This document shows positions 4,823 through 50,379 of a DNA stretch of 64,000 bases, piece by piece (positions within the stretch are counted from its first letter, which is position 1; every line of letters begins with the position of its first letter). The stretch comes from Aggregatilinea lenta. Its GTDB lineage: Bacteria; Chloroflexota; Anaerolineae; Aggregatilineales; Aggregatilineaceae. The notes beneath the pieces are model-generated. The model searched no databases. It saw only the letters and a program-made list of their open reading frames with translations, and was not told the origin of the DNA. The position numbers and the translations under genes are program-made. The stretch spans positions 1,655,506 to 1,719,505 of the forward strand of contig NZ_BFCB01000002.1 of NCBI RefSeq assembly GCF_003569045.1, in the 5' to 3' direction.

Positions 4823-5731
4823 TCACCACTCGGTCGCGATAGGCGCCACGTCGTTGGTCGATCCCCGGCGGCGGCTTTCGGCGGCCAGCTCGGTGATCTC
4901 GCGGATGTCCGCAAACTTGCGCGACGCGTTGGACACCATGCCCACGGCCAGCGTCATCAACGGCACCTTCTCGTTGTCCTTCATCATGAAGCCGCGTTCG
5001 CGGTCGATGAACGAATAGTGCTGCTGGATATCTTCGGCAAACCTGGAGGAAAGCCGCTCGACCAGCGCCTCTGGGCGCGTCGCGTAGGAAATAATCACGA
5101 AGTTGTCGCCACCCGCGTGTCCCACGAAATCGTCGGGTGTGCCCACGGCGTCGAGCACTTCGCCGATCAGCAGCGCTATGAAGCGCAGCGCCTCGTTCCC
5201 CGCGACGAAGCCATAGACGTCCTTGAACGCCTCGTAATGTGCCATGCGCAGGTCGAGGTACGACCACGTACGATCGTCGCGCATCAGGTCGCGCAGCTTG
5301 TCCTCGATGAGCAGGCTGCTGGGCAGGCCGCTGTTGGGATCAGTGGTGTTGTCGCGCTCGGAGCGCTCGATCTGGTTCTTGACACGCAGCTTGAGTTCTT
5401 CGATGTCGAACGGCTTGGTAATGTAATCGTCCGCGCCCAGCTCCAGCCCGGCGATCTTGTCGCTGCGCTCGTCCTTCTGGGTGAGAAAGATGATCGGGAT
5501 ATGGCTGGTGCGTGTCGTAGAACGCAAGTCGCGGCAGACGTCGTAGCCGTTCATGTCCGGCAGCATAATGTCGAGCACGATGAGCTGCGGGAGCTGCTTA
5601 CGCGTCAGCGCCAGTGCCTCATTGCCGCGCGGCGCAACCTGCACCTCGTAGCCCTGCCCAGAGAAGTAGATTTTCAGCATGTTGGAGATGTCGAAGTCGT
5701 CTTCGACCACCAGGATTCGGCCCTTGCTCAT
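4823..5731 (-). CDS. Response regulator: receiver plus degenerate GGDEF domain
   Basis: 302 aa. An N-terminal receiver (about residues 4-120) has the acidic pair D11/D12, phospho-acceptor D54 (VLDIMLPDMNG) and the conserved Lys in TKPFD. A GGDEF-fold domain follows (about 140-290); its signature reads AGGDNF instead of GGDEF, so diguanylate cyclase activity is doubtful. I chose the ATG at 5731 because it begins MSKGRILVVEDD, the normal receiver start, with a GGAAGG ribosome site upstream; 20 further codons are open upstream but look non-coding. It sits directly before the multi-GAF gene and may serve the same pathway. It probably works as an adaptor rather than making c-di-GMP. Confidence 0.88.
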   Translation of the reverse strand: MSKGRILVVEDDFDISNMLKIYFSGQGYEVQVAPRGNEALALTRKQLPQLIVLDIMLPDMNGYDVCRDLRSTTRTSHIPIIFLTQKDERSDKIAGLELGADDYITKPFDIEELKLRVKNQIERSERDNTTDPNSGLPSSLLIEDKLRDLMRDDRTWSYLDLRMAHYEAFKDVYGFVAGNEALRFIALLIGEVLDAVGTPDDFVGHAGGDNFVIISYATRPEALVERLSSRFAEDIQQHYSFIDRERGFMMKDNEKVPLMTLAVGMVSNASRKFADIREITELAAESRRRGSTNDVAPIATEW

Positions 5732-5848
5732 TACCCGTCCACCTTCCCCGTCCAGGGGTCTGTCGTAATTACTTGCCGGGCGGCGCGCCACCCCTAGGGT
5801 CCTTACTATACAATCGAATGGCAGCGATAGCTACTGGCGCATACCATC

Positions 5849-6943
5849 TTAGCGACCAGCTAACCGCCGCGCCGCCTGTTCGCGCACGTGCGCGATGGTC
5901 TCGTCCGTGACGGCGTGCTCGAAGCTGCGGAATCCACTCAGCCGGAAGCCGTGCCGCGCCGCGATCGCGCCGATCTCGTCCACGCGCGCCCGGTCGATGT
6001 GCTTGCCGACGCTGTAATCCTCGTAGCGTCCTTCGAGCGCCAATGCCATCGTCTCCGCCATGCACGCGTAGGACTTGCCCGGCGGAAAGCCAAAATTGAA
6101 GTTGAAGTTCACCGGGCCGGGCACTTCGACCATGCCGCCCTCGATCACCAGCACGTCGTCGCGTGCCTCTGCCACCCGCACGGACACGTCTCGCGGGCGG
6201 GCCACGTCGCACACTACCGCGCCGGGCTTGAGATGCTCCGGCTCGATCACAGCGCTGACCTGGCTCGTCACGGTCAGCACGAGGTCGGCGTCGTAAATGG
6301 CGGTGATGTCGCACGTGGCGGTGAGACGCGCCCGCTGGCCCTCGCAGCGCTCGCGCACGGCGTCCACCGCCTCCTGCCGCCGCCCGACCAGAACCAACTC
6401 TGGCACGAGGCCCGCCAGGATCTCGGCGCACACGCTGCCGATAGTGCCCGTCGCACCGACGATGGCCGCCGTCGCGCTGTCGAGCGAAATATCCATGCGG
6501 CGCGCCGCCTCGCGCACCGCTTCGATCGCCATGTAGACCGTGTAGGCGTCGCCGTTGGTGACCGGCATCTCCAGCCGCTCGGCGATGGTCACGCCGCCGT
6601 CGCCTACCACGGACGTATACGCGCCCAGACCCAGCAGGCGCGCGCCGAGGCGATCGGCCATGCCGCCGCACGCGACGATCTTGCGGTAGACCGTCTCCAC
6701 CGGCAGCTTGAGCATCGTTGCCGGGGTGAACGGGCAGGCGATGAACCACCCGCGCAGCTCGCGCCCGGTCGCTTCGGAGCGCACGCCCGTAATCTCGGAA
6801 ATGTACACGGGCGGGAAAAAGCGCGAAAAGAAATTGATCTGGCCTTCGGTCAGGATTTTGCCGACCAGCGGCCACTTGCGCGAGACGTCCGCCTTGGGGC
6901 TGATCGGGTGAATGATAAACGCAAACGTATCGTCGATGGTCAC
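5849..6943 (-). CDS. Acyl-ACP-reductase-like NAD(P)-dependent dehydrogenase (COG5322 type)
   Basis: 364 aa. The middle holds a Rossmann nucleotide-binding motif (AAIVGATGTIGSVCAEI, about residues 160-176) of the shikimate-dehydrogenase-like type. Upstream is a stretch of the form LGAYTSVVGDGG...MPVTNGDAYT, and downstream GKSYACMAETMALALEG. By recall, this arrangement matches cyanobacterial long-chain acyl-ACP reductases, which turn fatty acyl-ACP into fatty aldehyde; a Cys and a Lys act in that family, and the Cys in YACMAETM is a candidate. No aldehyde-deformylating oxygenase is nearby, so an alkane pathway is not supported. The real substrate may differ (wax ester, plasmalogen or polyketide aldehyde). 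It stands alone between genes of unrelated function. Confidence 0.7.
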   Translation of the reverse strand: MTIDDTFAFIIHPISPKADVSRKWPLVGKILTEGQINFFSRFFPPVYISEITGVRSEATGRELRGWFIACPFTPATMLKLPVETVYRKIVACGGMADRLGARLLGLGAYTSVVGDGGVTIAERLEMPVTNGDAYTVYMAIEAVREAARRMDISLDSATAAIVGATGTIGSVCAEILAGLVPELVLVGRRQEAVDAVRERCEGQRARLTATCDITAIYDADLVLTVTSQVSAVIEPEHLKPGAVVCDVARPRDVSVRVAEARDDVLVIEGGMVEVPGPVNFNFNFGFPPGKSYACMAETMALALEGRYEDYSVGKHIDRARVDEIGAIAARHGFRLSGFRSFEHAVTDETIAHVREQAARRLAGR

Positions 6944-44088: not shown

Positions 44089-44463
44089 TCAGTCCGCCCC
44101 CATCAGGTCTTCCAGCGCCACCAGCAGATCGGGGAAACGCACCGGCTTGGGCATATACAGGTTCGCGCCCGCCTCGCGCGCCTGGGCGCTGTTGGCGGGA
44201 TCGTTATGTGCGGAGATCATGATGACCGGCAGTGCGGCGAACTCCGGCTGGGCGCGCAGCCGCCTGCAGACCTCGAAGCCGTCGATATCGGGCAGCATGA
44301 GATCCAGCAGCAGCGCCGCCGGACGCTCCGTCTGCACCAGCGACAGGCCATCCAACCCGGTATACGCGCCACGCACGTCATAGCCCTTCAGACGCAAGAA
44401 CGTCGTGAGCATGTCTACCATCGCCGGTTCGTCGTCGATGACCGCAATCAATCGTCCTGTCAT
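44089..44463 (-). CDS. Single-domain response regulator (receiver only)
   Basis: 124 aa. Acidic pocket D10/D11, phospho-acceptor D54 (LLLDLMLPDIDG), Thr/Ser position in VIMISAHN and Lys in MPKPVRF are all present. There is no output domain, as in CheY-like relays. The start ATG overlaps the stop of the upstream GNAT-like gene in an ATGA, so it is translationally coupled to that gene. No histidine kinase lies nearby. Confidence 0.92.
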   Translation of the reverse strand: MTGRLIAVIDDEPAMVDMLTTFLRLKGYDVRGAYTGLDGLSLVQTERPAALLLDLMLPDIDGFEVCRRLRAQPEFAALPVIMISAHNDPANSAQAREAGANLYMPKPVRFPDLLVALEDLMGAD

Positions 44464-45683
44464 GTCCCCTCGTTTTCGCGCGGTTCGCTGCCAGCCTCCG
44501 CCGGGCCGGGGGCGGATCGCAAGACCCGTTCATAAAACCTGAAGCGTTTGTACGGCTCGGCGTTCAACGCTTCGACGATGCGATTCATGTCGTCGTTGGT
44601 TTCCAGCACCCAACCTGCGTCGGCGCGCCGCCAGCCCATTTCATCCGCGATGCTCTCGACCTGATTGAGCAGCTCGACCATCATCGCCGCCTCGACGCCC
44701 ATGTTCCTGAAGTCCTGTTTGACGCCCATCAGCGGCACGCGGATGCGGTCGATCTTCGAGCGCAGCTTCCAGTGCCACAGCACCTGGAGCAGCGTGATCG
44801 GCTCCGGGATGCTGGGGCGCGGGTAGGCACGTTTGAGCGCGCCGTTCAGGTCGGGAATACCCAGCATGAAACCCGCCGGTTCGCCCGCCACGTCCGCAAA
44901 AAACGTCAGGCGCGGGTCGAGGAACTGACCCAGACTCTCGACCAGCTCGTCCAGCTCCGGGTCCGACAGAGGCACGAAGCCCCAGTTGTGATCCCACGCT
45001 TGGTTATAGATCTCCTTGAGTGTTTGCAGCTCGGTCTTGACCGCGTCGCCGTCGAGCACGCGCACGCGGATCTGGCGGCGTTCGGCGTTGCGGCGCGTGA
45101 CGCGCACTGCCTGCTTGATCTTGGGCGACGACGTGAACCCCGCCAGCGTGAAGTTGTAGCAGATCAGGTCCATCGCCTTGGCGAAGCCGGGCGCGCGGTT
45201 CAACAGATCCTCATAGTACGGGCGGTTATAGGGCATCAGCACGGCGGGCGGATCGTCGAAGCCCTGCACCAGCACGCCGCACTCGTCGTTGGTAGAAAAC
45301 GTCGCCGGGCCGCGCAGCGCGTCATAACCGCGCGCCTGCGCCCACTCCACCGCCGTGTTCAGCAGGGCGTCCGCCACGGCCTGATCGTTGATCGTCTCGA
45401 ATGCGCCGAAGAACGCGATGTTCTCGTCGTGAAACTCGTTGTGGCGGCGGTTGACGTACGCCGCAATCGTGCCAACCACCTGCTTGCCCCGGCGCGCGAG
45501 GAAATAATCCCCTTCCAGGTGCTGCCAGGTGGGATTCTTTTTCTGGTCGAACTTGTGCTTCTGCATCGACATCAGAGGTGGAACCCAGTATGGGCTGGTC
45601 CGGTACAGCGTCCACGGAAACGTAATGAATGCCCGGTAGTCCGCCTTAGACGCAACCTTCGCCACCGTCAGTGCGTCAATCAC
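44460..45683 (-). CDS. GNAT-like protein (tandem paralogue 2)
   Basis: 407 aa from the GTG at 45683, chosen because GGAGGAG lies 8 nt upstream and the first residues then align with the neighbour (VIDALTVAKVASKADY versus MTDPISVRKVESKSDL). Conserved blocks include FPWTLYRTSPYWVPPLMSMQ, GTIAAYVNRRHNEFHDENIA and GYDALRGPATFSTNDECGV. The fold looks like a GNAT acetyltransferase (YghO-like group by recall); the substrate is unknown. It is coupled to the receiver gene by a 4-bp overlap. A longer frame upstream is open to 46049 but non-coding. Confidence 0.75.
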   Translation of the reverse strand: MIDALTVAKVASKADYRAFITFPWTLYRTSPYWVPPLMSMQKHKFDQKKNPTWQHLEGDYFLARRGKQVVGTIAAYVNRRHNEFHDENIAFFGAFETINDQAVADALLNTAVEWAQARGYDALRGPATFSTNDECGVLVQGFDDPPAVLMPYNRPYYEDLLNRAPGFAKAMDLICYNFTLAGFTSSPKIKQAVRVTRRNAERRQIRVRVLDGDAVKTELQTLKEIYNQAWDHNWGFVPLSDPELDELVESLGQFLDPRLTFFADVAGEPAGFMLGIPDLNGALKRAYPRPSIPEPITLLQVLWHWKLRSKIDRIRVPLMGVKQDFRNMGVEAAMMVELLNQVESIADEMGWRRADAGWVLETNDDMNRIVEALNAEPYKRFRFYERVLRSAPGPAEAGSEPRENEGT

Positions 45684-45763
45684 GTGTGCTCTCCTCCATC
45701 GTCCGATCGGTAACAGCTTAAGATCGTTGATCTTACCCATGTAAACGCGGCTGGCAAATCGAC

Positions 45764-46954
45764 TTACGGCTGCGGAGGCGCTTGCACGACGTAGCCCGGC
45801 TTGAGCGGCAGTTCGTAAAACCGGTAGCGCTTGTAGATCACGGAGTTGTACGCCTCCACAAGGCGCTGCATCGGCTCGTTGGTTTCCAACACCCAGCCGC
45901 CGTCGCCGACCTCCCAGCCGAGCGCCTGTGCCGCCTTGTACGCCTCGACGAACATGGCCGACTCGATGCCGATGCCCCGGTGGCCCTCCTCCACGCCCAT
46001 CAGCATGATGCGGATGCGCGTGATCTTCGAGCGCACCTTCCAATGCCACAGCAACTGCAGCAGCGTGACCAGCTCCAGCTTACCGGGACGCGGGTACGCC
46101 TTCAGCAGCACCTGGTTGAGGTCCGGCAGAGCCAGCATGAACGCCACCGGCTTGCCTTCGATCTCCGCAAAAAACGTCAGCCGCGGCTCGAAGTACTGGC
46201 CCAGGTCCTTAACCATCTCGTCCAGCTCTTTGCTGGAAAACGGCACGTAGCCCCAGTTCTCGTCCCAGGCCAGGTTATAAATATCCTTGAGTAGCTGGAA
46301 CTCGTGATCGAGGTGCTTGGTATCGGGCGTGCGGATAATGATGCTGCGGCGCTTACTGTTTTGCTGCGTGATACGGAACAGCTTTTCGAGCTTGGGCGAG
46401 TTGTTTATGGCCTGGAACGTGATGTAATAGCTGTAGAGGTCCATCACCCTCTCGAAGCCGGGCGTCGCTTCGACAAGGCGCTGGTAGTAGGGCGGATTGT
46501 AGGGCATGAGCACCACGGGTGGATCGTCGAAGCCCTCGATCATGATGCCGCACTCTTCGTTGGTCGAAAACGTCGCCGGGCCGCGCAGCGCGTCGTAGCC
46601 GAGCGCGCGCACGTAGTCCGCCGCCGTGTCGAGCAGCGCCGTCGCCGCTTCCTGGTCGTCGTAGACCTCAAACGCGCCGAAGAAGCCGATGTGCTCGTGG
46701 TGATATTCGTTGTGGCGGTGGTTGACAAACGCCGCGACGGTCCCCACGGGCCGATCGCCGCGCCACGCGATGAAATAGTCGCCCTCCAGGTGCTCCCAGG
46801 TCGGGTTTTTGGCTTTGTCGAACTTGTGGCGCTGCATCGACATCAGCGGCGGGACCCAGTAGGCGTTATCGCGATAGACCGTCCAGGGGAACTTTAAAAA
46901 AACATCAAGGTCGCTTTTAGACTCGACCTTGCGCACAGATATAGGGTCTGTCAT
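45764..46954 (-). CDS. GNAT-like protein (tandem paralogue 1)
   Basis: 396 aa. It is a paralogue of the next gene with the same blocks: YWVPPLMSMQRHKFDKAKNP, GTVAAFVNHRHNEYHHEHIG and GYDALRGPATFSTNEECGI, then FDDPPVVLMPYNPPYY. A second GNAT-like half is suggested by LLMGVEEGHRGIGIESAMFV (RGIGIE resembles an acetyl-CoA loop). The ATG at 46954 has AGGAAATCAGGC upstream. Cytosolic; function unknown. The pair plus the receiver probably form one operon. Confidence 0.75.
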   Translation of the reverse strand: MTDPISVRKVESKSDLDVFLKFPWTVYRDNAYWVPPLMSMQRHKFDKAKNPTWEHLEGDYFIAWRGDRPVGTVAAFVNHRHNEYHHEHIGFFGAFEVYDDQEAATALLDTAADYVRALGYDALRGPATFSTNEECGIMIEGFDDPPVVLMPYNPPYYQRLVEATPGFERVMDLYSYYITFQAINNSPKLEKLFRITQQNSKRRSIIIRTPDTKHLDHEFQLLKDIYNLAWDENWGYVPFSSKELDEMVKDLGQYFEPRLTFFAEIEGKPVAFMLALPDLNQVLLKAYPRPGKLELVTLLQLLWHWKVRSKITRIRIMLMGVEEGHRGIGIESAMFVEAYKAAQALGWEVGDGGWVLETNEPMQRLVEAYNSVIYKRYRFYELPLKPGYVVQAPPQP

Positions 46955-47139
46955 GCCTGATTTCCTTGAGTGTGCAGCGATAAACTTTAGTTTCAGGCGA
47001 CAATGTTACTCCGCTCCCCCAGGCGGGCCAAATATCGCCGCCTACAGGGCGAGAATCCGGCACGGACCACATTTCAGCCGTCATCAGGGAACCCTTTGTT
47101 GCCCGGCTGCGACTAATGGATCGAACTGAAGGAGCCGCC

Positions 47140-47694
47140 ATGCACCCGCCATCTGATCCCGATCGGGCGCTGCTGAATGCCATCGCACAGGGGGATACGC
47201 ACGCGCTGGAAGCGCTGTATGTGCAGCATGGGCTGCGACTGCTGCACTATCTCGTCGGGCAGCTCGGCGACCCCGCGCTGGCCGAAGAAGTGCTGCAAGA
47301 CGTGATGCTGGCGATCTGGCAGCAGGCGCGGCGCTTCCGAGGCGAAAGCCGCGTCACGACCTGGATGCTCGCCATCGCGCGGCACCACGCGATCAGCGCG
47401 CGGCGACGGCAGAAGGCTCCACCCGGCATCCTGCCCGATCATGCCGTCAGCAGCGCCCCGCCCCCGCTGGATACGCTGATCCGACGGGACGAGTGCGAGG
47501 CCGTGCGCGAAGCGCTGCACAGCCTGCCGGACGACCAGCGCGAAACGCTCGAGCTCGTCTTTTACCACGGCCTCAGCGGGCCAGAAGCTGCGCGCGTGCT
47601 GGGCGTGGCGCACGGCACGGTCAAAAGCAGGTTGCACCGCGCCAAGGCGAGCTTACAGAAGTTATTGAGCATCGAGGAGAAGAACGATGCATAA
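47140..47694 (+). CDS. ECF-family RNA polymerase sigma factor
   Basis: 184 aa from the ATG at 47140, which has AAGGAG 6 nt upstream; an ATG 8 codons earlier has none. Region 2 (LYVQHGLRLLHYLVGQLGDP, EEVLQDVMLAIWQQARRF, VTTWMLAIARHHAIS) and region 4 (LPDDQRETLELVFYHGLSGP, AARVLGVAHGTVKSRLHRA) are complete and joined by a short linker, the ECF layout. Its stop overlaps the next gene by 8 bp, typical of sigma/anti-sigma pairs. The next gene has a zinc anti-sigma finger. Confidence 0.95.
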   Translation: MHPPSDPDRALLNAIAQGDTHALEALYVQHGLRLLHYLVGQLGDPALAEEVLQDVMLAIWQQARRFRGESRVTTWMLAIARHHAISARRRQKAPPGILPDHAVSSAPPPLDTLIRRDECEAVREALHSLPDDQRETLELVFYHGLSGPEAARVLGVAHGTVKSRLHRAKASLQKLLSIEEKNDA

Positions 47695-50164
47695 ATCGTG
47701 GCTGGACCAACTGCCCTATTACGCCGCCGGGACGCTGCCCGACGCCGAGCGCGCCGCCCTGGAACAGCATCTGGCCGGGTGCGCCGAGTGCCGCCGCGCG
47801 CTGGACGAGTGGCTCGTGATCGGGCAGGCCGTGACGGGGAACGCCATCGAACGTGCCACGTCTCTACCGCCGCTGCCCGCCCTACCGCCCCAAACCGCGC
47901 CGCGCCGCCGGATCGCCCGCGTGCCGCTGGCCTGGGCCGCATCGATCCTGCTCGCGCTGGCGGTCGGCGTCCTGGCCGGGCTGCGCTTCGAACCGGACGA
48001 ATCGAGCGGACCGCACGGCAGCGTGTTCATCCAGGCGACCGAGGCCGCGCCGGAGCCGGGCGCAGAATCGCTGCCGCCTGCCGCAGACCTGGATCTGCCG
48101 GGCGTGCCGGTGCCGAAGATCCCCCGCATCGACGAGACGCCGTCCTACCTGATCCATCCCGGCACCACCGCCACACTGCTAGCGCTCAACACACTCGGCT
48201 ACACCGACCTGAACCCGCCCGTGTACGAGGTACAGATCGACGAGCTGACCGATCCAATCCGCGCCACTCTGGAAGACACGAGCGTCACGCCGGATGACAT
48301 CGTCGCGTTCGTCAATCACAGCACCGGTTTCCGCGCGCTGGCGCGCCTGGGCGGAACGGTCGATCTTGCCGAGCGGATCGTGGCGGCGGGTTATCCCTTG
48401 ATCGCCGCGACGACGGTGCGTTTCGAGCCGGACGACATCTTCGAGGGCATCCGCCTGTACGCAGATTATCACGTCGTCACCGGCTACGATATAGATCAGC
48501 GCGCGCTGCTGGCGTACGACGCCTACGATCTGCGCCCAACCAGCGATCCCGCACTGATCCCCTATTCGGCCTTCGACGCGTTGTGGACGCCATCCGCCAA
48601 TGCATTCATCGTGATTTACCCGCTCGACGACGAGGCACGCGTGATGCAGATTCTGGGCGACTATGCCGATCCCGACGCCGCCGCACGCGCCGCCTTCGAC
48701 CAGGGCATCGCGCAGACGAGTCTCGACGGGGCGGACGCGCTGGCGTGGCTCAAACTCGGCAACGCGTGCTACGCGCTGGGCAAGTTCGATCAGGCTGCCG
48801 ACGCCTACGACATGGCGCTGGATCAGGGCCTGTCGCTGACTCTGCTGCAAGGCCAGTTCGGGCCGTTCCAGGTTTATTACGCCCAGGAACGTTACGAGGA
48901 CGTCGTCCGGCTGCTGCGCAACAGCGCCCCGGCGGACGGCATGAATGCCGAAGAGTGGCAGTACTGGTACGGCATAACCGAGATCACGTTGGGGAACGTC
49001 GAGGAGGGCCGTCCATATCTGGAACGCGCACAGGCGCTCAATCCGGCGTACTTGCCTGCAACGGCTGCTCTGGCTGACTTCAACATGCAGGCCGCCGCAA
49101 ACGCCACCGAGCAACCCGGCTCGCTTACGAACGCGACCCCCATGCCAAACACCCCGTTTCCCATGTCCCTCCTGCGGCTGGCGGGGATTCGCTACGTGGC
49201 GCAAGCCTGGAACAATGACGGTCCCGCGACGCTTGAAATGGCATTCAGCGCGCGGGGCAACAGCCAGAGTCAGACCTACATTCAGGCATTCCTGCGGCCC
49301 AACGTGGAAGACAAAAGCACCCGCCCCGACGAGCTAGTGCAGTACGTCAACGAGCACACCGATCTACATGCGGTCATGCGGATCGGCGGGGATCGGGCAG
49401 TGCTCAAGCGACTGCTGGCGTGGGGCTTCCCGGTCATCGTCGAGCAGGGATTCCAGCCCGACGGGGAAGACTGGCTCGGCCACTACGTCCTGCTCATGGG
49501 CTACGACGATCTGTCGGGCGCGTTCCTGACCTACGACAGCTATCTTGGCCACGGCAACCGGCAGGGCATGCCACAGCCCTATGACACGTTCGACAACGCG
49601 TGGCGGCAGTTCAACCGCGTGTTCATCGTCGTCTACCAGCCTATGGAAGAACGCAGGTTACAACTTGCGCTCGGCGATTACACAGATGAGAGCTACGGCG
49701 TACAGGTAGCACTTGAGGCAGCGCAGCGCGAAGCTGAGGCAGACGCAGACGATGCGTTTGCGTGGTTCAGCCTGGGATCGTCCTACATCGCACTGCAGGA
49801 CTACGAGAACGCAGCGGCGGCCTACGACAAAGCATTCCAGTTGATGCTGCCCCCACACATGTTGTGGTACCAGTTCGGCCCGTACGAGGCGTACTACAAC
49901 GCAGGTCGCTACGAAGACGTGCTCGCGCTGGCCCTGTCGAACCTGGGCACGACCACCTACGTCGAGGAAACCTACTACTGGCAGGGCAAAGCTTATGCCG
50001 CCCTGGGGCGTGTCGTCCAGGCAAAGGGCAGCTTCCAGCAGGCGCTGGCGCTGAACCCGAACTATGCGCAGGCAGAGGAGGCACTTGTGGATCTTCTGCC
50101 CGGCTTCGTCGCCACGCCGGATGCGACTGAGGTCCCGGACGCCACCGAAGCCGCCGCGCCGTAG
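47687..50164 (+). CDS. Transmembrane anti-sigma factor fused to two Cys-less C39-like modules and TPR-like repeats
   Basis: 825 aa. Residues 1-60 form a zinc anti-sigma domain (H28, C32, C35). Residues about 84-105 are the single membrane segment (LAWAASILLALAVGVLAGL). Outside follow two units of the same plan. Unit 1 (about 150-450) has a C39-peptidase-like domain and a TPR-like pair. Unit 2 (about 495-795) has AWNNDGPATLEMAFSARG, GHYVLLMGYDDLSGAF and TYDSYLG, then TPR-like helices. The usual catalytic Cys (NNCGPAT) is Asp in unit 2 and missing in unit 1; the His is kept only in unit 2. Probably a sensing rather than a cleaving domain. It overlaps the sigma gene by 8 bp. Confidence 0.88.
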   Translation: MHKSWLDQLPYYAAGTLPDAERAALEQHLAGCAECRRALDEWLVIGQAVTGNAIERATSLPPLPALPPQTAPRRRIARVPLAWAASILLALAVGVLAGLRFEPDESSGPHGSVFIQATEAAPEPGAESLPPAADLDLPGVPVPKIPRIDETPSYLIHPGTTATLLALNTLGYTDLNPPVYEVQIDELTDPIRATLEDTSVTPDDIVAFVNHSTGFRALARLGGTVDLAERIVAAGYPLIAATTVRFEPDDIFEGIRLYADYHVVTGYDIDQRALLAYDAYDLRPTSDPALIPYSAFDALWTPSANAFIVIYPLDDEARVMQILGDYADPDAAARAAFDQGIAQTSLDGADALAWLKLGNACYALGKFDQAADAYDMALDQGLSLTLLQGQFGPFQVYYAQERYEDVVRLLRNSAPADGMNAEEWQYWYGITEITLGNVEEGRPYLERAQALNPAYLPATAALADFNMQAAANATEQPGSLTNATPMPNTPFPMSLLRLAGIRYVAQAWNNDGPATLEMAFSARGNSQSQTYIQAFLRPNVEDKSTRPDELVQYVNEHTDLHAVMRIGGDRAVLKRLLAWGFPVIVEQGFQPDGEDWLGHYVLLMGYDDLSGAFLTYDSYLGHGNRQGMPQPYDTFDNAWRQFNRVFIVVYQPMEERRLQLALGDYTDESYGVQVALEAAQREAEADADDAFAWFSLGSSYIALQDYENAAAAYDKAFQLMLPPHMLWYQFGPYEAYYNAGRYEDVLALALSNLGTTTYVEETYYWQGKAYAALGRVVQAKGSFQQALALNPNYAQAEEALVDLLPGFVATPDATEVPDATEAAAP

Positions 50165-50301: not shown

Positions 50302-50374
50302 TCCTGAGTAGCTCAATCGGCAGAGCAATCGGCTGTTAACCGATGGGTTGTAGGTTCGAGTCCTACCTCAGGAG
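50302..50374 (+). tRNA. tRNA-Asn (anticodon GTT)
   Basis: The acceptor TCCTGAG pairs with CTCAGGA. The anticodon loop CTGTTAA gives GTT. D arm and TTCGAGT T loop are normal. CCA is encoded at 50375-50377. Confidence 0.96.
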
Positions 50375-50379
50375 CCAAC

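Follow-up and report, generated by a model that had tools for sequence, protein, structure and literature searches.

For many anti-sigma factors of the extracytoplasmic function (ECF) class we know of no assigned signal. Here we describe a two-gene ECF unit in a 64,000-nucleotide stretch of the Aggregatilinea lenta genome (contig NZ_BFCB01000002.1; hereafter the window), in which a membrane anti-sigma factor carries two outer units, each made of a domain resembling a C39 cysteine peptidase without its catalytic Cys and a run of tetratricopeptide repeats (TPRs). A described counterpart is RsiV of the RsiV-SigV system of Bacillus subtilis, likewise a membrane anti-sigma factor, whose outer domain binds the envelope-acting ligand lysozyme directly, followed by regulated proteolysis, according to two reports (PMC5014341, PMC4183432). 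Unlike the C39 outer part seen here, that of RsiV is of the DUF4163-DUF3298 type with a known ligand; neither DUF was among the Pfam matches of our anti-sigma factor at E 0.1, which sets it apart from RsiV-type receptors. A C39 domain lacking the Cys has a precedent in the C39-like domain (CLD) of HlyB, which has no peptidase activity, binds the substrate and is the main determinant of specificity (PMC11026475). The likeness is of the domain only, as HlyB is an ATP-binding cassette (ABC) transporter with no sigma factor, and no transporter domain was among the Pfam matches of the anti-sigma factor at E 0.1. The class I anti-sigma factors (ASDI family) share the Hx3Cx2C domain beside an ECF gene and often a membrane helix, and the accessible portion of their account does not mention a C39 outer domain (PMC7406223). 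The order also contains free C39-TPR proteins, including one from the same genome that is 56% identical to the unit 2 region. They share the C39-TPR unit; unlike the anti-sigma factor they have an intact Cys-His-Asp set, no ECF gene in the available flank and mostly murJ as the next gene.

A literature search, with most subscription papers beyond its reach, found no work treating an anti-sigma factor together with a C39 peptidase, in agreement with a first-pass annotation of this stretch that knew of no described anti-sigma factor of this architecture. As far as could be tested, the combination, the conserved loss of the Cys and the murJ-linked relative are undescribed; the parts have precedents in RsiV and the HlyB CLD. 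We propose, with a probability of about 60%, that the locus is a self-regulated two-gene ECF unit in which an active, wall-linked peptidase has been turned into a non-cutting receptor that controls release of the sigma factor. The proposal draws on features read from sequence, namely the architecture, the fold, the loss of the nucleophile with the surrounding motif kept, purifying selection in one pair, a promoter element and the link to murJ. The features of the unit were as follows.

47088..47116, plus strand: predicted sigma-dependent promoter of the operon, GGAACC-N17-GACTAA, shared with most family sigma relatives
47140..47694, plus strand: ECF sigma factor gene (regions 2 and 4; Pfam Sigma70_r2 and r4_2), 184 aa from the ATG
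47687..50164, plus strand: anti-sigma factor gene (825 aa), with 8 nt shared with the sigma gene
47699..47794, plus strand: cytosolic zinc-finger anti-sigma domain, zf-HC2, H28/C32/C35 (Pfam, 39.0 bits)
47918..47986, plus strand: single membrane helix, about residues 78-100 (hydropathy)
48104..48625, plus strand: unit 1, degenerate C39-like domain with Pro in the Cys column and Asp in the His column; its active-site Asp is kept
48668..49099, plus strand: TPR repeats of unit 1 (Pfam TPR_1, with the best match at residues 351-379; helices in the model)
49163..49648, plus strand: unit 2, C39-like domain without the nucleophile (Pfam Peptidase_C39_2, 43.9 bits; model)
49217..49219, plus strand: codon of Asp511 (GAC) at the place of the catalytic Cys
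49481..49483, plus strand: His599, the catalytic His, kept
49535..49537, plus strand: Asp617, the third active-site residue, kept
49739..50095, plus strand: TPR repeats of unit 2, about residues 685-803 (Pfam TPR_2 and others; helices in the model)

The sigma protein matched Sigma70_r2 (50.9 bits) and Sigma70_r4_2 (56.5 bits), both above the Pfam cut-offs, and region 3 was absent among the listed Pfam matches, the pattern of an ECF sigma factor. A longer sigma reading frame from a start at 47116 is unlikely because the -10 element of the conserved promoter occupies 47111-47116 and an AAGGAG precedes the ATG at 47140. The N-terminal Hx3Cx2C domain of the partner (zf-HC2, residues 5-36, cut-off 22.2 bits), encoded beside the ECF gene, places it among the class I (zinc) anti-sigma factors, and the pair was kept in five other genomes of the family. 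The six highest 19-residue hydropathy windows began at residues 78-83 and none beginning past residue 110 exceeded 1.4, giving one membrane helix and an outer part of about 725 residues. This outer part consisted of the two C39-TPR units, 35.5% identical to each other, with Pfam TPR stretches behind both C39 domains. On the sigma gene and its zinc-finger partner (H28/C32/C35), the single helix and the two similar units with TPR-like repeats, our analysis confirmed the first-pass annotation. Its term "Cys-less" was correct for the C39 modules and failed for the outer part as a whole: the protein has three Cys residues (C32, C35 and C361), and C361 lies within the TPRs of unit 1.

The C39 fold was supported by profile and by AlphaFold models, strongly for unit 2 and less for unit 1. 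Pfam Peptidase_C39_2 (PF13529) covered residues 501-619 against a cut-off of 24 bits, and the AlphaFold2 model of unit 2, made from seven aligned sequences, had a mean predicted local distance difference test score (pLDDT) of 90.3 and a predicted template modelling score (pTM) of 0.89. The first half of this model matched PeiR (8z4h, Z 16.9, 143 aligned, 2.0 A), 3erv (Z 16.8, 157 aligned, 3.1 A) and the ComA peptidase domain (3k8u, Z 16.0, 135 aligned, 2.1 A), which are ties; PeiR is a pseudomurein endoisopeptidase, a wall endopeptidase. The second half matched TPR proteins, at the top of the structural list with Z 17.6. The unit 1 model (mean pLDDT 79.3, pTM 0.78) was helped by the inclusion of unit 2 in its alignment, and its C39 matches, PeiR-C90A (Z 13.2, 142 aligned, 2.6 A) and the HlyB C39-like domain 3zua (Z 12.8, 129 aligned, 2.7 A), stood among TPR proteins at up to Z 14.6.

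Neither unit has the Cys that an active C39 cysteine peptidase combines with His and Asp. The Cys column holds Asp in unit 2, within the motif WNNDGPAT, with His599 and Asp617 in their alignment columns as first read from the NNDGPAT motif and its His and Asp strands, and it holds Pro in unit 1, where the His column is Asp and the Asp is kept; the earlier statement that unit 1 lacks both Cys and His was accurate. The protein also fell short of the PA2778 family of cysteine peptidases (NCBIfam NF033920), with 45.4 bits against a curated cut-off of 150. The suggestion that the modules keep the fold and not the nucleophile was borne out, the C39 similarity being real by profile (43.9 bits) and by fold (Z 16.0-16.9).

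The loss of the Cys recurred in relatives of the same architecture. Two free C39-TPR proteins of the own genome, which show 56% and 46% identity to the anti-sigma factor in the unit 2 region, retain the Cys. In 5 of the 17 other family genomes we observed an orthologous sigma gene followed by a zf-HC2 anti-sigma factor with a hydrophobic stretch (by eye) and one C39-TPR unit, and in all five the Cys was replaced, by Ala (G001), Ser (G002, G004, G014) or Gln (G011). These five pairs came from orthology of the sigma factor and not from the motif; a seventh case, from a genome of family f8 (G062), came from the motif, lies beside a different ECF gene and has Gly. The Cys place in the six family anti-sigma factors, our own included, thus reads D, A, S, S, S and Q, to which G062 adds G, with Asp in one of the seven cases. 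No copy of this architecture that keeps the Cys was found among the five family orthologues or in G062. The first-pass annotation had itself raised the alternative of a simple mutant, i.e. an ordinary point mutation to Asp in one strain of an otherwise active sensor-peptidase; we found no support for it, all five orthologous anti-sigma factors found are also without the Cys, and its probability is negligible.

In the 18 family genomes a DNA pattern for QxWNNxGP matched at 31 places. Cys was present at 25 of them, and the six that lack it are exactly the six anti-sigma factors (backwards control, 0). Across the 154 genomes of the order, two codon patterns for a non-Cys residue gave seven places, the six family anti-sigma factors and G062, and a stricter scan of a genome contig collection (84,980 species, from which the own genome may be left out) gave five, all already found. 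Four non-Cys places were observed in a class-wide sample of 396 genomes, our own and three others that we judged to be chance, as no open reading frame (ORF) listed there reads as a C39 protein. The scans cover QxWNNxGP without Trp at the Cys place, and the strictest covers only GPAA or GPAT followed by L or F, without the TCN serine codons; modules as degenerate as unit 1 would escape them. Full-length searches first suggested that the fusion was unique, which the orthologous pairs from the sigma search ruled out; queries with the whole protein or residues 1-436 matched other fused copies only across the C39-TPR part, the N-terminal query being a poor test. A peptide-pattern scan of the contig collection found no relative. 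The plasmid collection gave six records, from Deinococcus and Meiothermus, none of which covers 80% of the protein, with four of the six places annotated as C39 peptidase.

For comparison we used 63 distinct Cys-bearing sequences from loci fetched as good matches, not a random sample; rows with fewer than 270 aligned columns or E > 1e-30 were dropped from the alignment. Q506, W508, N509, N510, C511, G512, P513, G598, H599 and D617 (unit 2 numbering) were invariant in all 63, and the seven Cys-less copies kept every one of these residues except C511, the exception being G062 with A at 598 and Q at 599. When the 69 rows from outside the window were sorted by whether a sigma gene lies upstream on the same strand, the division was identical to that by residue (63 versus 7): none of the six with such a gene had the Cys, and all 63 without one had it. 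An HxxxCxxC earlier in the frame was found in 0 of these 63, for which the available upstream flank spans 2 to 4167 nt and reaches 550 nt or more in 53. We discounted a weak "sigma" match (E 4e-4) on the opposite strand near one Cys-intact copy, L042, because the translation of the match is unlike a sigma factor. Because 63 of 63 relatives without a sigma gene in the flank keep the Cys, its loss, as judged from these alignments, goes with the anti-sigma context, and chance variation within the family does not account for the Asp.

By the same alignments the nucleophile is consistently gone, and several of the replacements could not act as one. The variety of D, A, S, S, S, Q and G argues against a substitute nucleophile, with A, Q and G implausible in that role, and hence against a domain that is still an enzyme, using another nucleophile or chemistry and delivering its product as the signal. 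His and Asp kept in six of the seven copies and Ser in three would suit such an enzyme, which we consider very unlikely. With the motif kept and the nucleophile changed, the seven sequences cleanly illustrate what was probably the conversion of a peptidase to a receptor.

One close pair (G002 and G014) allowed an estimate of the ratio of non-synonymous to synonymous substitution rates (dN/dS). It was 0.10 for the dead C39 domain and 0.16 for its TPRs; the free protein gave 0.03 for its C39 domain and 0.05 when the whole unit was taken. The value of 0.81 for the N-terminal 110 codons of the anti-sigma factor comes from few changes and is left uninterpreted. In this pair, the dead C39 domain is maintained and somewhat less constrained than the free enzyme. 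These values bear on the possibility that the outer modules are functionless, decaying remnants, as might be read from the degenerate state of unit 1 and from the end branches of the fused copies in the C39 tree (0.64 to 2.81 versus a median of 0.22, with a shared stem of 0.75 for G002 and G014). We hold such decay to be highly unlikely, given the low ratio in the one pair, the intact frames, the pocket motif kept in all seven copies and the high pLDDT of unit 2.

The main rival to a receptor is a C39 domain that serves as a rigid spacer or scaffold, with the TPRs sensing via a partner protein and the Cys lost as catalysis became useless or harmful. TPRs usually bind peptides or proteins, and the TPR part was aligned throughout the fused copies. 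The kept motif residues can be structural, and unit 1 has been retained though most of its cleft is lost. However, the C39 domain of the close pair is at least as constrained as the TPRs, and Gln, His and Asp, which a spacer does not obviously need, are kept in six of six family cases. We regard a mere scaffold as less likely than a receptor.

The gene murJ, encoding the lipid II flippase, lies about 390 nt downstream of the closest free C39-TPR gene of the own genome (Pfam MurJ, 280 bits). A MurJ homologue was next downstream on the same strand in 45 of the 63 free copies, and for 37 of these the first aligned MurJ residue lay no more than 160 nt away. This neighbourhood links the presumed parent enzyme to lipid II export or wall building, and it fits with the PeiR fold match, with the LysM domain of the sister anti-sigma factor in G011 and with the M23 domain of the G062 protein (both Pfam). 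Together with the PeiR match it lends indirect support to the wall fragment that the first-pass annotation had named among possible ligands. The closest free enzyme of the own genome, by its sequence presumably active, has by eye a short N-terminus and a hydrophobic stretch ahead of the C39-TPR unit. The putative sensor thus has a presumably active close relative adjoining murJ in the same genome, and its ligand can be hunted through the enzyme. At the own-genome locus L115 (3062-6750, with the free C39-TPR paralogue at 5146-6750), as at most of the loci examined in this order, a Cys-intact C39-TPR gene is followed by murJ on the same strand, and this pair may deserve study as a wall enzyme.

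The promoter element GGAACC-N17-GACTAA stood upstream of seven of the nine family sigma copies and one further copy has GTCTAA; the G010 sigma copy was the only one of the nine with no such match upstream. The own genome has a single match to GGAACY-N17-GWCTAA, at 47088-47116 (backwards control, 0), and our regulon search there with this pattern found no target besides the operon. Within the window, two matches were observed with up to two mismatches, compared with 2.18 expected. The 18 family genomes hold 17 matches to the pattern, eight of them before these sigma genes. Matches away from the sigma genes are no more than chance, and only the position before the sigma genes supports the element. 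The conserved element predicts autoregulation and a regulon that would be small or more loosely marked.

In the receptor mechanism that we favor, the sigma factor of an unstimulated cell would be kept at the membrane by the cytosolic zinc-finger domain. The outer C39-TPR units, above all unit 2, would use the former active-site cleft to bind the kind of ligand that the enzyme binds, and leave it uncut. A wall or wall-precursor peptide would be the likeliest ligand because the presumed parent enzyme is murJ-linked. Binding of the ligand, or its loss, would expose the anti-sigma factor to regulated proteolysis, and the freed sigma factor would then act at GGAACC-N17-GACTAA to transcribe its own operon, perhaps along with a small number of other genes.

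Several observations weigh against this mechanism. Sigma binding and inhibition, the ligand and its nature, the proteolytic step and the regulon are all steps that we infer. M50/site-2-protease homologues occur in the own genome and also in 14 of 14 control genomes, and carry little weight. The promoter pattern gave no more matches across the 18 family genomes than its backwards control (17 versus 18). The kept motif residues may serve the fold and not the pocket, and unit 1, in whose sequence little of the cleft is left, cannot share this mode of binding. Ser at the Cys place in three copies could keep a trace of activity. The six family cases probably go back to one ancestor (sigma tree), and the C39 tree (one change, support 50) is compatible with one loss of the Cys as well as with several, so that even the seventh, in G062, need not be separate. 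The sigma group is also not tied to a single signal, as it has partners with WD40, SH3, SnoaL and fasciclin-esterase outer domains elsewhere. Finally, the wall link is indirect: murJ was not seen next to 18 of the 63 free copies, including the second own copy and some with little flank, nor beside any of the six fused copies outside the window (downstream flanks of 0 to 5327 nt).

The ECF factor of G062 is 21% identical to that of the window and gave no match at E 1e-30 in the sigma search. Just 3' of it we observed a protein with a Pfam-unmatched N-terminus, a hydrophobic stretch (by eye), a C39 domain, TPRs and a C-terminal M23 domain. We infer from its position that the N-terminus is an anti-sigma domain. 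The C39 motif reads WNNGGP and its His is changed to Gln. The M23 domain looks dead too: where we presume HLHFE to be the family sequence, it reads NLYFE, by eye a loss of the HxH. The pair (L104 663-3276, also L147) is an ECF and anti-sigma-like arrangement with both a Cys-less C39 and an M23 domain, and the next gene upstream of the G062 sigma gene (L104 3370-4602) encodes by eye an apparently intact LysM-M23 protein.

We offer as a tentative extension that the flow of wall precursors is what the anti-sigma factor senses. It would be a disarmed decoy that competes with the murJ-linked C39-TPR enzyme for one and the same lipid II or peptidoglycan peptide, and would report through the sigma factor how much of this ligand is uncut. 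The extension further holds that the G062 ECF lineage was converted on its own, with its dead C39 and dead M23 domains. If this is true, conversion of an enzyme to a receptor would be a repeatable route to new anti-sigma sensors.

The sigma group comprised 34 copies in 32 of the 154 genomes of the order (E 1e-30 or better, the weakest 1e-39). In the sigma search over 61 relatives the next match was only 3e-24; in the class-wide sample the gap around the group closes (E down to 3e-31). The partners of the 34 copies were six Cys-less C39-TPR proteins, seven WD40-type propellers (five by Pfam, two by likeness), 12 SH3-labelled (nine with Pfam SH3_3 at E <=0.01, two of these under the cut-off, and three by eye), two SnoaL, four fasciclin-esterase (one by Pfam, three by close likeness) and three unknown. 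G006 has two sigma copies at contig ends with the partner cut off, and the G010 copy has a different outer domain. Eleven of the 20 non-C39 partners scanned matched zf-HC2; the others have by eye a similar start, with the zinc ligands partly or wholly missing.

In the sigma tree of 33 rows the five labels needed four changes, the minimum for five labels, and six changes against a minimum of five when "unknown" was counted as a label. All C39 cases clustered together, along with the unknown G006a (support 85/77), and the WD40 clade was adjacent (join 86/86). By this tree the partner of the sigma factor appears to have had its outer part exchanged a few times during the history of the lineage. 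With five or more kinds of outer domain, this one sigma lineage is in effect a swap experiment on anti-sigma sensors made by nature. For sigma relatives outside the order, 16 places were listed and 13 fetched; a partner frame was offered for 12 of the 13, several plainly wrong, and inspection by eye, without a profile scan, showed no C39 domain among the partners at these 13 places. Within the group, anti-sigma factors with fasciclin and esterase domains were observed in L122, L125, L126 and L127 (Pfam on L122), and the outer enzyme of L122 may be active, as its esterase serine motif GNSLGG (by eye) suggests. Those of L189 and L193 have SnoaL domains, two stretches each, and lie on two separate branches of the sigma tree.

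Models from PADLOC (anti-phage defence) gave 0 families at E 0.001 for the sigma and anti-sigma proteins. The neighbours of the unit in the window (GNAT, M29 peptidase and APH genes) had no counterparts in the 18 stretches compared. Upstream, at 44460-46954, two adjacent minus-strand ORFs (529 and 396 aa) are by eye similar and acetyltransferase-like, with Pfam Acetyltransf_1 on the 396-aa one, and are probably a tandem duplication. Directly 3' of the anti-sigma gene lies a tRNA-Asn gene (50302-50377), followed by the convergent M29 peptidase gene.

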